Below are positions 25,523-30,023 of a DNA stretch of 32,815 nucleotides, piece by piece; within the stretch, counting starts at the first letter, position 1; every line of letters starts with the position of its first letter. A program made the position numbers and the translations under genes. The notes under the pieces are model-generated. The model saw only the letters and a program-made list of their open reading frames with translations. It was not told the origin of the DNA and searched no databases. Origin of the DNA: Kiloniellaceae bacterium (GTDB taxonomy: Bacteria > Pseudomonadota > Alphaproteobacteria > Kiloniellales > J153); the NCBI GenBank assembly GCA_021776055.1, contig JAJFGP010000025.1, forward strand, positions 1 through 32,815, in the 5' to 3' direction.

Positions 25523-26917
25523 CTAAACGATCGATCCGAAGGCCTGTAGGGGCCGGTCCTCCAGCATCTCGGCGAGAATCCCCAACGCCTTGTCCAGCAC
25601 GGGGCGGCTTAGCAGCGGACCGAAGCAGGCACGGATGGCATGCGAGGGTGCGCGGCGGCCGACCGAGAATGCTTCGGCCGGGGTTACGCCCAAGCCGCGC
25701 CGCTTGGCCTCGGCGGTGAAATCCGTGGAGCGCCACGGCTCGGGCAGATGCAGCCATATATGCAAGGCGCCGGGGGCGCAGTTCATGTCCCAGCGGTCGA
25801 GGGCCTTCAACGTTCGCTCCCGCCGCCAAGCCGCTTCGCGGCGTAGATCATGAAGTATCCGCTCGGCCGAGCCGTCGCGAATCCAGCGACAGGCGATTTC
25901 AACCGCGATAGGCGGCGCAATCCAGCAGGTGGTGCGGATAGCACTAGCCACGCGGTCCACGGCGATAGCGGGAACGGCGGCAAATCCGACCCGCAATCCT
26001 GGCGCCGTCGTCTTCGATAATCCCGTGACGTAGTAGACCAAATCCGGGGCCAGCGCGCACAGCGGCGGGGGTGCCTCCGGCGCCAGGCGGCGGAAGATGT
26101 CGTCCTCCAGAACAGGTAAATTGTGGCGGCGGGCGATGTCGACGATAGCCTGTCGCCGCTCCGCCGGCATGGTCACCGTGGTTGGGTTCTGTAGGGTCGG
26201 GATGCAGTAGAGCGCGCGGTAGCTACCGCGCCGGCAGGCGGCCTCCAGGGCCTCCGGCTGCAGACCATGTTCGTCAAGGGGCAGGGGATCGAGGTGCAGG
26301 CCCAACAGCCGGGCCGCCAATTGGATGCCCGGATAGGTCACGTCTTCGGTCAGAATACGATCGCCCGGCCGGGTCAGCGAGGCCAGCACAACGATCACGC
26401 CATGTTGCGCCCCGGCCGTGACCAGGACGCGCTCTGGGGTTGTTGGGACGCCGCAGCGCGCCAACCACTCGGCGCCTGTGGCGCGGTGCTCCGCCAACCC
26501 GCCATTTGGATGGTATCGCAGGAGTCCCGCCATTGCCGGGTCGGCAGCCATCTCTTGCAAGGTAGGGCCTATGGCGGCCGCTTCGCTGCCGGCGGCCGGG
26601 AAATTCAAGGTCATATCGATGAAGGTGTCTTCGATCGCCGCTGGTCCGGCCATGGCCAAGGTGACCGCCGGAACCACGGTGCGCACATAGGTGCCGCGGC
26701 CAACTTCGCCGCTGACCAGGCCGCGCCGCCCGGCCTCGGCATAGGCGCGGCTGACCGTGCCCACGGTAACGCCCAGGCGCCAGGCCAGGTCGCGGTGCGT
26801 CGGCAAGCGTTCACCGGCCATCAGAGAGCCCGCGGCGATGTCCGCGGACAGGGCGTCGGCGATGGCGACATAGCGGGGGCCGGATTGGCTCGCGAGGTCG
26901 GGTTGCCAAGTTGTCAT
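25523..26917 (-). CDS. MocR-family regulator (GntR-type HTH fused to aminotransferase-like domain)
   Basis: A 464-residue PLP-dependent-type transcription factor. The N-terminal winged helix-turn-helix (about 12-80) contains LPTHRDLAWRLGVTVGTVSR and the GLVSGEVGRGTYV wing; the rest is a fold-type I aminotransferase domain (about 105-460) with the PLP-lysine segment VTGLSKTTAPGLRVGFA. Such proteins (GabR, PdxR, TauR) sense an amino compound or vitamer through PLP chemistry; the effector here is unknown. I chose the ATG at 26917 because the TTG at 26953 would add 12 poorly supported residues. No Shine-Dalgarno precedes the ATG. It is divergent from the DUF1127-permease unit and probably regulates it and itself. 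Confidence 0.9.
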   Translation of the reverse strand: MTTWQPDLASQSGPRYVAIADALSADIAAGSLMAGERLPTHRDLAWRLGVTVGTVSRAYAEAGRRGLVSGEVGRGTYVRTVVPAVTLAMAGPAAIEDTFIDMTLNFPAAGSEAAAIGPTLQEMAADPAMAGLLRYHPNGGLAEHRATGAEWLARCGVPTTPERVLVTAGAQHGVIVVLASLTRPGDRILTEDVTYPGIQLAARLLGLHLDPLPLDEHGLQPEALEAACRRGSYRALYCIPTLQNPTTVTMPAERRQAIVDIARRHNLPVLEDDIFRRLAPEAPPPLCALAPDLVYYVTGLSKTTAPGLRVGFAAVPAIAVDRVASAIRTTCWIAPPIAVEIACRWIRDGSAERILHDLRREAAWRRERTLKALDRWDMNCAPGALHIWLHLPEPWRSTDFTAEAKRRGLGVTPAEAFSVGRRAPSHAIRACFGPLLSRPVLDKALGILAEMLEDRPLQAFGSIV

Positions 26918-27011
26918 GGTGACAATAATCGCATTGACCCCTAATAAAGGCAAGAGATAGATTTAGAAGGGTGACAATATAGGGGGCCATTTGGCCTATG
27001 CGAGGAATTAA
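26918..27011. promoter_or_regulatory. Divergent promoter with two 10-bp direct repeats
   Basis: GGTGACAATA occurs at 26918-26927 and again at 26970-26979, exactly 52 bp apart (about five helical turns), in the gap between mocR and the DUF1127 gene. MocR regulators commonly bind paired direct repeats on one DNA face, so these are candidate operators. Between them TTGACC (26934-26939) and TAGATT (26958-26963), 18 bp apart, form a plausible rightward promoter; the second repeat would then overlap the start point. On the minus strand TTGCCT and GATTAT could drive mocR with a start only a few bases from its ATG. GGCCA-TT-TGGCC at 26985-26996 lies in the rightward leader. Confidence 0.6.
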
Positions 27012-27236
27012 ATGCATACAATTAGATCAAAGCTTCTGCTGACGTTGGGCGGGACCCTGTTTGTTGGCAGCCTGGAGTCGGTCGCGAAAGGCACCGTCGA
27101 CCTTCTGTTCATCTGGCAGGAGCGAGCGACCCAACGTTACGCGCTGGCGTCTCTGGACCAGCGAATGCTTGCCGACATCGGCCTCACGCGCGCCGACGCT
27201 TGGCGCGAGGCAGCCAAACCGTTCTGGCGCGCCTGA
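27012..27236 (+). CDS. DUF1127 domain small protein
   Basis: A 74-residue protein whose C-terminal half (about 35-74; LFIWQERATQRYALASLD and RMLADIGLTRADA) matches the DUF1127 or YjiS-like domain abundant in alphaproteobacteria. The family is small and basic; some members have been linked to RNA binding and to phosphate or carbon metabolism, but no general mechanism is known. The N-terminal 30 residues are mildly hydrophobic. AGGA lies 6-8 bp before the ATG. It is the first gene of the rightward unit and 13 bp upstream of the permease. Confidence 0.85.
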   Translation: MHTIRSKLLLTLGGTLFVGSLESVAKGTVDLLFIWQERATQRYALASLDQRMLADIGLTRADAWREAAKPFWRA

Positions 27237-27249
27237 GACCGGGTACCCG

Positions 27250-28731
27250 ATGGCCACCTCGATGATCGCGCTTTTGGCCGCCGCGCCGATACTGACGTCC
27301 GTTGCCTTGCTGTTGGTGCTGCGGCAATCGGCCTTGCGGGCCGGTGCGGCCGGCCTGGTGGTGGCCCTGGTGGTTGCTTCGATGGCACCGGCCTTTCGTC
27401 TGCCGGCCGACGATCTGAGCCAGGCGGTGATCGGCGGGGCACTGACGACGGTCTCGGTCGCCTACGTGTTGCTTGGCGGCATGCTGCTTTATGCGGTTCT
27501 GCGCGAGGGGCAAGCACTGGATGCCATCGCGGCTGCGGCAGCGCGGGCCGTTCCCGACCCGGGGCGGCGGGCCTTGTTGATGGTGCTCGGCCTCTCGGTC
27601 TTCCTTGAGTCGGCGACCGGCTTTGGTATTGGCATCGTCGTCGCGGCGCCGCTGTTCGCGGCCTTGGGCTACAAGCCTCGGCAGGCGGCGCTTCTGGCGC
27701 TTACCGGACAATGCGCGGTGACCTGGGGGGCATTGGGGATCGGAACCACGTTGGGTGCCGATCTAACCGGCATCGCTGCGCCGCGCATGGGTGTGCTGGC
27801 GGCGCTGCTGAGCGTGCCCCTGATGCTGCTTTGCGGCGGCACGGCCCTGTGGCTGACCGGCGGGCCGGTGGCTCTCTGGAGGCGCTTGCCGGAACTCCTG
27901 GCCTATGCGGCTATTTTGGCGGCCAGCTTGGCCGGTGGCAGCCACCTGCTGGGGATTGAGGTGGCCGGCATGATCGGCGGGTTGGCCGTTATCGCTGCCG
28001 GCTTGCTGGTCAATCGTCTGGTGTCCCGGGCCGCGTCAGAACAGGACCATCCAAGGGCGGTCGCGCGGGCGCTAAGTCCGCTGGCAATTCTGCTCGCTTT
28101 GCTTTTGCTGACACGCATCATCACGCCTCTAGCTGAATGGCTGGGGGAGGCGGCGGTGTTGAATCACCCCGCCGCCGGGTTCCGCTTACCGGTTCTCTAT
28201 CATCCTGGCTTCTGGTTAGTTCTAACAGCGGCCGCGGCGATTCCGATCCTTGGCCTGACCGCCGATCGATCGTTGGCGGCGATTGGCGGTGCGCTTCGAC
28301 AATGGCTGGTTGCGACTCTGGCGGTTGCCGGTTTTCTGTGTTTTTCGCAGGTCATGTCGGCCGCCGGTATGACGGCGGCCTTGGCGACGGCGGTCGCCGA
28401 TGGCGCTGGCGGACTTTACGTCGTGCTGCTGCCCGCTGTTGGCGGTTTGGGGGGCTTCCTGACGGCCAGCAATGCTGGATCGAACGCCATGTTCGCGCAA
28501 TTCCAAAGCGCCGTCGGCGCGCGCCTGGGGTTGCCTGCGGATCTTGTCGCGGCAGCGCAGAACGCCGCGGGGGCCAATGCAACCCTGGCCTCGCCCGGAC
28601 GGGTGGTGCTGGCCGCGGCGGTGACGGGGCAAGTCGGCAAGGAAGCCGAATTATTGCGCCCGGCTTTGGCATTGGCGATGGCGGGCTTGGTGGGCTTGAC
28701 CGCAATCCTGTGGGTCTGGGCCGGTAGCTAA
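27250..28731 (+). CDS. L-lactate permease (LctP/LldP) family transporter
   Basis: A 493-residue polytopic inner-membrane protein with about 12 or more hydrophobic segments. Motifs ESATGFGIGIVVAAPLFAALGY (shown here in part: FLESATGFGIGI), TGQCAVTWGALGIGT and the C-terminal GGFLTASNAGSNAMFAQFQ are typical of the lactate permease family, which imports lactate, glycolate or related 2-hydroxy acids with protons. The actual substrate is unknown; the MocR regulator and PhzF neighbour hint at a less ordinary hydroxy or amino acid. The ATG at 27250 was chosen because upstream starts lie in the DUF1127 gene in another frame. phzF follows after 16 bp. Confidence 0.85.
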   Translation: MATSMIALLAAAPILTSVALLLVLRQSALRAGAAGLVVALVVASMAPAFRLPADDLSQAVIGGALTTVSVAYVLLGGMLLYAVLREGQALDAIAAAAARAVPDPGRRALLMVLGLSVFLESATGFGIGIVVAAPLFAALGYKPRQAALLALTGQCAVTWGALGIGTTLGADLTGIAAPRMGVLAALLSVPLMLLCGGTALWLTGGPVALWRRLPELLAYAAILAASLAGGSHLLGIEVAGMIGGLAVIAAGLLVNRLVSRAASEQDHPRAVARALSPLAILLALLLLTRIITPLAEWLGEAAVLNHPAAGFRLPVLYHPGFWLVLTAAAAIPILGLTADRSLAAIGGALRQWLVATLAVAGFLCFSQVMSAAGMTAALATAVADGAGGLYVVLLPAVGGLGGFLTASNAGSNAMFAQFQSAVGARLGLPADLVAAAQNAAGANATLASPGRVVLAAAVTGQVGKEAELLRPALALAMAGLVGLTAILWVWAGS

Positions 28732-28747: not shown

Positions 28748-29527
28748 ATGGAAATCCCGATTTATCAGGTCGATGCGTTCGCATCGGAGGTGTTTGCCGG
28801 TAATCCGGCGGCGGTCTGCCCGTTGGAGGCGTGGCTGCCGGACGATGTCATGCAGGCGATTGCCGCCGAGAACAATTTGGCGGAAACCGCTTTCTTCGTG
28901 CGCCGGGGCGACGAGTTCGACCTGCGCTGGTTCACCCCGACAGTCGAGGCGGAGATGTGCGGTCATGCCACCCTGGGCAGCGCCTATGTGATCATCAATT
29001 ACCTGGAGCCGGAGCGGCGCGAAGCCCGCTTCCACACGCGCAGTGGCCAATTGGTCGTCACCCGCGATGGCGAAAACTATTGTCTCGACCTGCCGGCCCA
29101 ACCGCCGGAGCGTGTGGACGCTAGCGCGGACGTGACGGCGGCCTTGGGTGCCGAGCCCGTCGAGCTGTGGCGGTCTATGTACATGATGGCGGTCTTTTCG
29201 GACCAGGCACAGATCGCTAACATATCACCCGACTTCGCCAAGGTGGCGGCGCTCGAAAAAGGAGAGATCATTGTGACCGCGCCGGGAAATACGGGCGATT
29301 TTGTCTCCCGCTTTTTTGCCCCAGCCGCCGGCATTCCGGAGGACCCGGTGACCGGTTCGGCGCATACCATCTTGGCACCGTATTGGGTGCAGCGCTTGGG
29401 CAAGACACACATGGCGGCACGGCAAATCTCGCGCCGGGGCGGCGAACTGGCGGTCGAATTGCGCGGCGACCGCGTGCTGCTCACCGGCCGGGTGGCGCCC
29501 TATCTGGAAGGCCGCATCCGTGTCTAG
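28748..29527 (+). CDS. PhzF-family isomerase/epimerase-like protein
   Basis: A 259-residue protein with the diaminopimelate-epimerase-like fold. It starts MEIPIYQVDAFASEVFAGNP and has the family's catalytic glutamate in NNLAETAFF (E46), the EAEMCGHATLGSA segment and the C-terminal PEDPVTGSAHTILAPYW signature. In PhzF itself this glutamate moves a proton in phenazine synthesis; most family members, including this one, have no known substrate. No other phenazine genes are present, so the name should not be read as phenazine production. AGGAG lies 9 bp before the ATG. Its end overlaps the next gene by 8 bp. Confidence 0.9.
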   Translation: MEIPIYQVDAFASEVFAGNPAAVCPLEAWLPDDVMQAIAAENNLAETAFFVRRGDEFDLRWFTPTVEAEMCGHATLGSAYVIINYLEPERREARFHTRSGQLVVTRDGENYCLDLPAQPPERVDASADVTAALGAEPVELWRSMYMMAVFSDQAQIANISPDFAKVAALEKGEIIVTAPGNTGDFVSRFFAPAAGIPEDPVTGSAHTILAPYWVQRLGKTHMAARQISRRGGELAVELRGDRVLLTGRVAPYLEGRIRV

Positions 29528-30023
29528 GCATCGCATCGTGCTGGCCCGCGCCGACGAAGAGCATGACATGGAGATCGTGCGCACATTATTTCGTGAATAT
29601 GCGGAGTGGCTGCAGGTCGATTTTTGCCTCCAGGATTTCGACACGGAGTTGGCTGGCCTGCCGGGTAAATACGCGGCGCCGGGCGGTGGCCTGTGGCTGG
29701 CCCGTGTCGATGGCAAGGTGGCCGGTACTATCGCCTTCCGACCATTGGAGGATGGCGTCTGCGAGATGAAACGGCTTTGGGTCCGCGACGAGTTCCGGGG
29801 TCTTGGCCTAGGCCGGCGTTTGGCCGAGACGTGCGTCGCGGTGGCTCGCGACGCCGGCTACAAAGCCATGTGTCTCGATACCCTGGGCCACATGACGGCG
29901 GCGCGGGCGCTATACGAGAGCCTGGGGTTCGGCGAGATCCCGGCCACCTACGAAAATCCGGTGGACGACGTGCGTTATATGCGTTGCGAATTTGCAGGCG
30001 TTGCGGGTTTGCCCACCGGTTGA
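29520..30023 (+). CDS. GNAT-family N-acetyltransferase
   Basis: A 167-residue acetyl-CoA-dependent acyltransferase. The GNAT motif A is MKRLWVRDEFRGLGLGRRLAE (in part: EFRGLGLGRRL, R/Q-x-x-G-x-G/A type), followed by a helix and the motif B segment ARALYESLGFGEI. The start is GTG at 29520, overlapping phzF by 8 bp, so the two are translated together. The acceptor substrate is unknown; an amine or amino acid handled by the same operon is a reasonable inference only. Confidence 0.87.
   Translation: MSRHRIVLARADEEHDMEIVRTLFREYAEWLQVDFCLQDFDTELAGLPGKYAAPGGGLWLARVDGKVAGTIAFRPLEDGVCEMKRLWVRDEFRGLGLGRRLAETCVAVARDAGYKAMCLDTLGHMTAARALYESLGFGEIPATYENPVDDVRYMRCEFAGVAGLPTG

Follow-up and report, generated by a model that had tools for sequence, protein, structure and literature searches.

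The short repeats in the promoter region between a MocR-type regulator gene and a divergent DUF1127 gene are very probably binding boxes of that regulator, and we predict, with a probability of about 0.8, that the site they mark is the operator of this EnuR/EhuR-like MocR protein. The deeply conserved and fixed element is an inverted repeat on the start codon of mocR, and the more distant boxes shift between lineages by whole helical turns. This provides a concrete and testable predicted operator for a large, uncharacterised MocR branch that is paired with DUF1127 small proteins. For regulon prediction, it also means that a search for direct repeats at a fixed spacing would miss most orthologues.

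The locus lies in a window of 32,815 nucleotides, which is the whole stretch of DNA that was analysed. The regulator, P0001 (25523 to 26917, reverse strand), carries a GntR wHTH domain (PF00392, 50.1 bits) and a class I aminotransferase domain (PF00155, 100.9 bits), both over the cut-off, which places it in the MocR subfamily of GntR regulators, and its putative PLP lysine, K302, sits in SKTTAPG, the expected motif. On the forward strand, a COG5457/YjiS-type DUF1127 protein of 74 amino acids (27012 to 27236; PF06568, 36 bits) is followed by an LctP-like permease (27250 to 28731; PF02652, 1.8e-51, under the cut-off of the lctP model), a PhzF-family isomerase (28748 to 29527; PF02567) and a GNAT acetyltransferase (29520 to 30023; PF00583). 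The permease is likely to be co-transcribed with DUF1127, and PhzF is likely to belong to the same operon. Downstream of the permease, the GNAT gene overlaps the end of phzF by 8 bp, an arrangement that matches the co-occurrence of PhzF and RimI in other MocR regulons.

The initial annotation had described two identical 10-bp repeats spaced by 52 bp in a 94-bp gap, and these observations are exact. GGTGACAATA is found at 26918 to 26927 and at 26970 to 26979, with a start-to-start distance of 52 bp, and 94 bp separate the mocR ATG (26915 to 26917) from the DUF1127 ATG at 27012. The G+C content of the gap is 43%, compared to 63% in the window. GGTGACAATA occurs five times in the 3.72-Mb genome, two of these being the copies in the gap, and sites with up to two mismatches are mildly enriched in the window (20 seen versus 12.8 expected). 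When the whole window was scanned, 47 of 3,273 overlapping 94-bp segments contained an exact 10-bp direct repeat.

What had been overlooked is that the copy at 26918 has an inverted partner. On the mocR strand, this proximal box reads TATTGTCACC, stands directly 5' of the ATG and runs into ATGACAACTTGG, thereby forming the 5' arm of the inverted repeat TTGTCA-CCA-TGACAA. The predicted main operator, at 26911 to 26925, has the sequence TTGTCATGGTGACAA (TTGTCA-TGG-TGACAA) and encloses the start codon; in its slightly longer form on the mocR strand (26911 to 26926), ATTGTCACC at positions -9 to -1 is followed by ATGACAA, so that the site straddles the start codon. The site is the genome's sole perfect TTGTCAnnnTGACAA, and the reversed control pattern had zero genome matches. 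Only two sites elsewhere in the genome match TTGTCAnnnTGACAA with one mismatch (G000:C78:2932-2946 and G000:C173:12189-12203; L157 and L158), and these are possible extra targets.

We compared upstream regions drawn from whole-genome relatives and named genomes, among which 80 had the start-codon box where it was predicted. At less than 60% identity, 54 of these are non-redundant, and they span about 30 families or lineages. The nearest named relative, a Kiloniellaceae MAG with 88% identity, contributes no promoter because its contig starts inside mocR. To be among the 54, a sequence had to have (A/T)CA after an ATG-like codon at the predicted start; neither the ATTGT arm, nor the third-base pattern beyond that arm, nor the upstream boxes entered the selection. 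ATTGT at -9 together with ACAA at +4 is present in 41 of the 54. The fixed 52-bp direct repeat, which had been proposed as the unit and as a pair to be sought in orthologous promoters, was rejected as a conserved element, with ATTGT at -61 in just 7 of the 54 and absent there in L009 to L012. Only the source lineage has the exact pair at 52 bp; what the orthologues did retain is the proximal box and, in 36 of 54, at least one in-phase upstream ATTGT.

The gene facing mocR varies. In promoters that lack DUF1127, or in which it is not the leading gene, the divergent position is occupied by PhzF, an EamA transporter, a PLP decarboxylase or a class III aminotransferase. In one genus (L023, L024, L026, L029 and L031), the place of DUF1127 opposite this operator is taken by a PLP-dependent decarboxylase, and the second box is at -53. 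Close relatives with 44 to 50% identity were also found on MAG contigs assigned to Acidobacteriota, Vicinamibacteria and Planctomycetota (L043, L046, L047 and L048), which reflects either horizontal transfer or a binning error; L043 carries the full start-codon site, and L046 and L048 carry the right arm only.

The two copies were said to touch the mocR start codon and the rightward start point, and both do lie at transcription starts predicted from the sequence. A promoter scan gave a rightward -35 element, TTGACC (26934 to 26939, forward strand), and a -10 element, TAGATT (26958 to 26963, forward strand), with an 18-bp spacer and a start expected near 26970, the -10 element being a consensus match only. 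Besides the start-codon box, the most conserved element is GTCAA at -21 of mocR, which is the TTGAC of the predicted rightward -35. For mocR itself, the candidate -35 element is TTGCCT (26948 to 26953, reverse strand; T43/T34/G29/C27 of 54 in columns -36 to -33), although it is poor in several family members. The candidate -10 element, GATTAT/ATTATT (26924 to 26930, reverse strand), overlaps the proximal box and is A/T rich at -12/-11 and conserved at -9 to -7. Together with a weaker TTG(C/A) at -36, the A/T-rich positions point to a mocR promoter with a -10 that extends into this box. The mocR message is probably leaderless, which fits the finding that a Shine-Dalgarno-like 4-mer precedes only 4 of 54 mocR starts, compared to 17 of 25 ATGnnnACAA starts on the divergent strand. 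As consensus matches, the two predicted promoters overlap, with each -35 inside the spacer of the other, and RNA polymerase should therefore occupy only one of them at a time.

Since the predicted mocR -10/+1 region lies under the proximal site and the predicted rightward +1 under the distal box, the simplest reading is that MocR represses transcription in both directions, which we consider slightly more probable than not. The regulator would recognise ATTGT(C/A)-type boxes, with its main site, ATTGTCACC followed by ATGACAA, over its own start codon and, facing the same side of the helix, further single boxes: the second GGTGACAATA, 52 bp away, and a weaker one 96 bp away on the DUF1127 start codon. 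Bound MocR, possibly as a dimer that bridges the phased boxes, would shut off both its own gene and the DUF1127-permease-PhzF-GNAT unit, and this repression may be lifted when an amine metabolite reacts with the PLP carried by K302.

Activation of the divergent operon is known from many MocR proteins, and the proximal site lies just upstream of the rightward -35, a possible activator position. MocR could repress itself at the start-codon site and activate the DUF1127-permease unit from just 5' of its -35, like GabR, TauR and PdxR. The inverted repeat does end about 8 bp upstream of the conserved TTGAC, and there is precedent: PdxR switches pdxST on while repressing its own gene, pdxR, and TauR also works as an activator (PMC5320631). 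However, the distal box at the predicted rightward +1 and the box that many relatives have on the DUF1127 start codon are both at positions that suit repression, and EnuR, the closest characterised relative, is a repressor. We therefore regard activation of the rightward unit as rather unlikely, albeit the strongest competitor of dual repression.

The distal box (26970 to 26979, reverse strand) again reads TATTGTCACC on the mocR strand, five turns from the proximal box and at the predicted rightward +1, but it has no inverted partner and is a single half-site. We are less sure of its role than of that of the start-codon site because ATTGT, which L008 and L013 also carry at -61, is missing there in L009 to L012, which belong to the same family. 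A weak third box, ATGCATACAAT (27012 to 27022, forward strand), covers the DUF1127 start codon, with ATTGT on the mocR strand at -105, and lies 96 bp, or about nine turns, from the proximal box. ATTGT is found at -103 to -106 in 20 of the 54 relatives, and the DUF1127 genes of the set start with ATGnnnACAAT at about -95, codon 2 being variable.

Across the 54 non-redundant promoters, upstream boxes are strongly enriched, both as ATTGT (81 seen versus 14.0 in shuffles, sd 3.5) and as ACAAT (43 versus 9.2, sd 2.8). Measured from the conserved box, the distal ATTGT boxes are 2 to 9 helical turns away and occur in both orientations, with distances that cluster at 20-21, 31-33, 40-44, 52-55, 62-64, 74-75, 84-87 and 94-97 bp and best periods of 10.8 bp for forward and 10.6 bp for reverse boxes. 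With one sequence per family and both start-codon boxes excluded, the resultant R at 10.5 bp was 0.735 (lowest draw, 0.68), whereas 2,000 draws of the null gave a mean of 0.17 and a maximum of 0.54; the period was not fitted, but the word ATTGT was picked after the alignments had been viewed. Among control words, TTGTA and TGTAT were also phased because they overlap and form part of the ATTGT box, and GTATT and ATTTG were unphased. The idea that the repeats share one face of the helix thus turned out to describe a real, selected trait of this promoter class, of which the 52-bp spacing in the source genome is one instance.

These data bear on whether the start-codon inverted repeat functions alone, with the second exact copy being a chance match in an A+T-rich promoter. 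An exact 10-bp direct repeat did arise somewhere in 0.4% of dinucleotide shuffles of the 100-bp region, and the distal copy is not kept at -61 in L009 to L012. Against coincidence, upstream ATTGT is about sixfold enriched and phased across independent lineages, the distal copy is in phase, and L008 and L013 have ATTGT at the same place. A chance origin of the second copy is accordingly improbable, and clearly more so than activation of the rightward unit.

The preferred reading of phased MocR boxes could be extended to the whole gap. With a fixed face and fixed start-codon sites, and with intermediate boxes drifting by whole turns, MocR dimers may bridge or wrap the entire intergenic region. 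Tentatively, the boxes would then form a helically phased array of about nine turns, from the mocR start codon to the DUF1127 start codon, which, once bound, would act as one switch controlling two overlapping promoters that exclude each other. The phasing is compatible with, and no more than suggestive of, bridging through a loop or a dimer.

The conservation around the start codon acts at the DNA level. Codon 2 of mocR is ACA in 53 of 54 relatives, whereas ACA makes up 7.5% of the Thr codons in the rest of these genes, although the identity of codon 2 was partly selected for, as the choice of the 54 required (A/T)CA after the start. Among relatives outside the 54, the palindrome is retained despite a shifted start in L130, L134 and L149, and it also occurs without an internal ATG in L061, L069 and L134, the Marinobacterium-type L061 and L069 reading ATTGTCACCCTGACAA, which places the constraint on the DNA and not on translation. 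It is therefore very unlikely that ATTGTCACCATGACAA is kept as a signal for translation or for a leaderless start, or because it encodes the N terminus (M-T-x-W): the ATG does lie inside ATTGTCACCATGACAA in most relatives and MTxW is conserved in the protein, but the palindrome is conserved 5' of the ATG as well, outlasts the ATG in the ways just described, and the same ATTGT core recurs upstream in phase. The MocR-paired DUF1127 proteins (from the window, L008, L014, L022, L034, L116 and others) share only an M-x-T-(I/M) N terminus and the C-terminal DUF1127 motif, and the N-terminal conservation looks like a constraint on operator DNA and not on protein.

Several features of this promoter are familiar from other MocR systems, in which boxes are spaced by one or several helical turns, regulons often include COG5457 (DUF1127), and a motif of two direct boxes plus one inverted box, as for GabR of Proteobacteria, is the commonest class with 32% of regulons (Suvorova and Rodionov 2016; PMC5320631). 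The inverted repeat at 26911 to 26926 and the boxes at 52 and 96 bp, with a family-wide period of about 10.5 bp, give the two to four boxes, direct and/or inverted, at whole-turn spacing of a MocR-type operator, and the two direct boxes and one inverted box are shared with the commonest class. The difference is that the distal box is five turns off here and drifts from 2 to 9 turns between lineages, whereas characterised examples are reported to have two or three (PMC5320631). Escherichia coli also has divergent MocR and DUF1127 genes, yjiR and yjiS, but YjiR and P0001 share only 25% identity, no ATTGTCACC/TGACAA operator is present between yjiR and yjiS, and we rejected this pair as a model operator. 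PdxQ regulons share gene content, with transporters, PhzF (COG384) and RimI-type acetyltransferases, but contain PLP-metabolic genes, none of which was seen at the source locus. Our literature search found no publication naming both DUF1127 and MocR.

The closest parallel is with EnuR, EhuR and EutR. P0001 scores 479.6 bits against the NCBIfam EhuR model, where the cut-off is 480, and two relatives score above it (L008, 508.2 bits; L014, 494.0 bits). In the source genome, which is 99.8% complete, eutD and eutE were not found above cut-off (best 134.7 against 613 bits and 75 against 402.7 bits, respectively), and an ectoine function was rejected; the EnuR-like sequence and motif thus come without evidence of an ectoine role. 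EnuR is a repressor that is released by inducers reacting with PLP, and the EnuR/EutR operator, ATTGTnnnnnnACAAT, overlaps sigma-70 promoter core elements (PMC8739950). The ATTGT...ACAAT inverted-repeat arms, the overlap with promoter core elements (predicted here) and the frequent presence of COG5457 in the regulon are shared, and ATTGTnnnnnnACAAT differs from the DUF1127-start site by two mismatches; the lysine is number 302 in both P0001 and EnuR, a likeness of number alone. In contrast to those systems, the spacer here is 7 bp (ATTGT-CACCATG-ACAA) where 6 has been published, the operator coincides with the start codon of the regulator gene itself, and the targets are DUF1127, an LctP-like permease, PhzF and GNAT. 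Whole-turn box spacing, the class of two direct boxes plus one inverted box and the presence of COG5457 in MocR regulons are already published; to the literature that we examined, the promoters described here add the location of the operator on the start codon and the whole-turn drift of the distal boxes.
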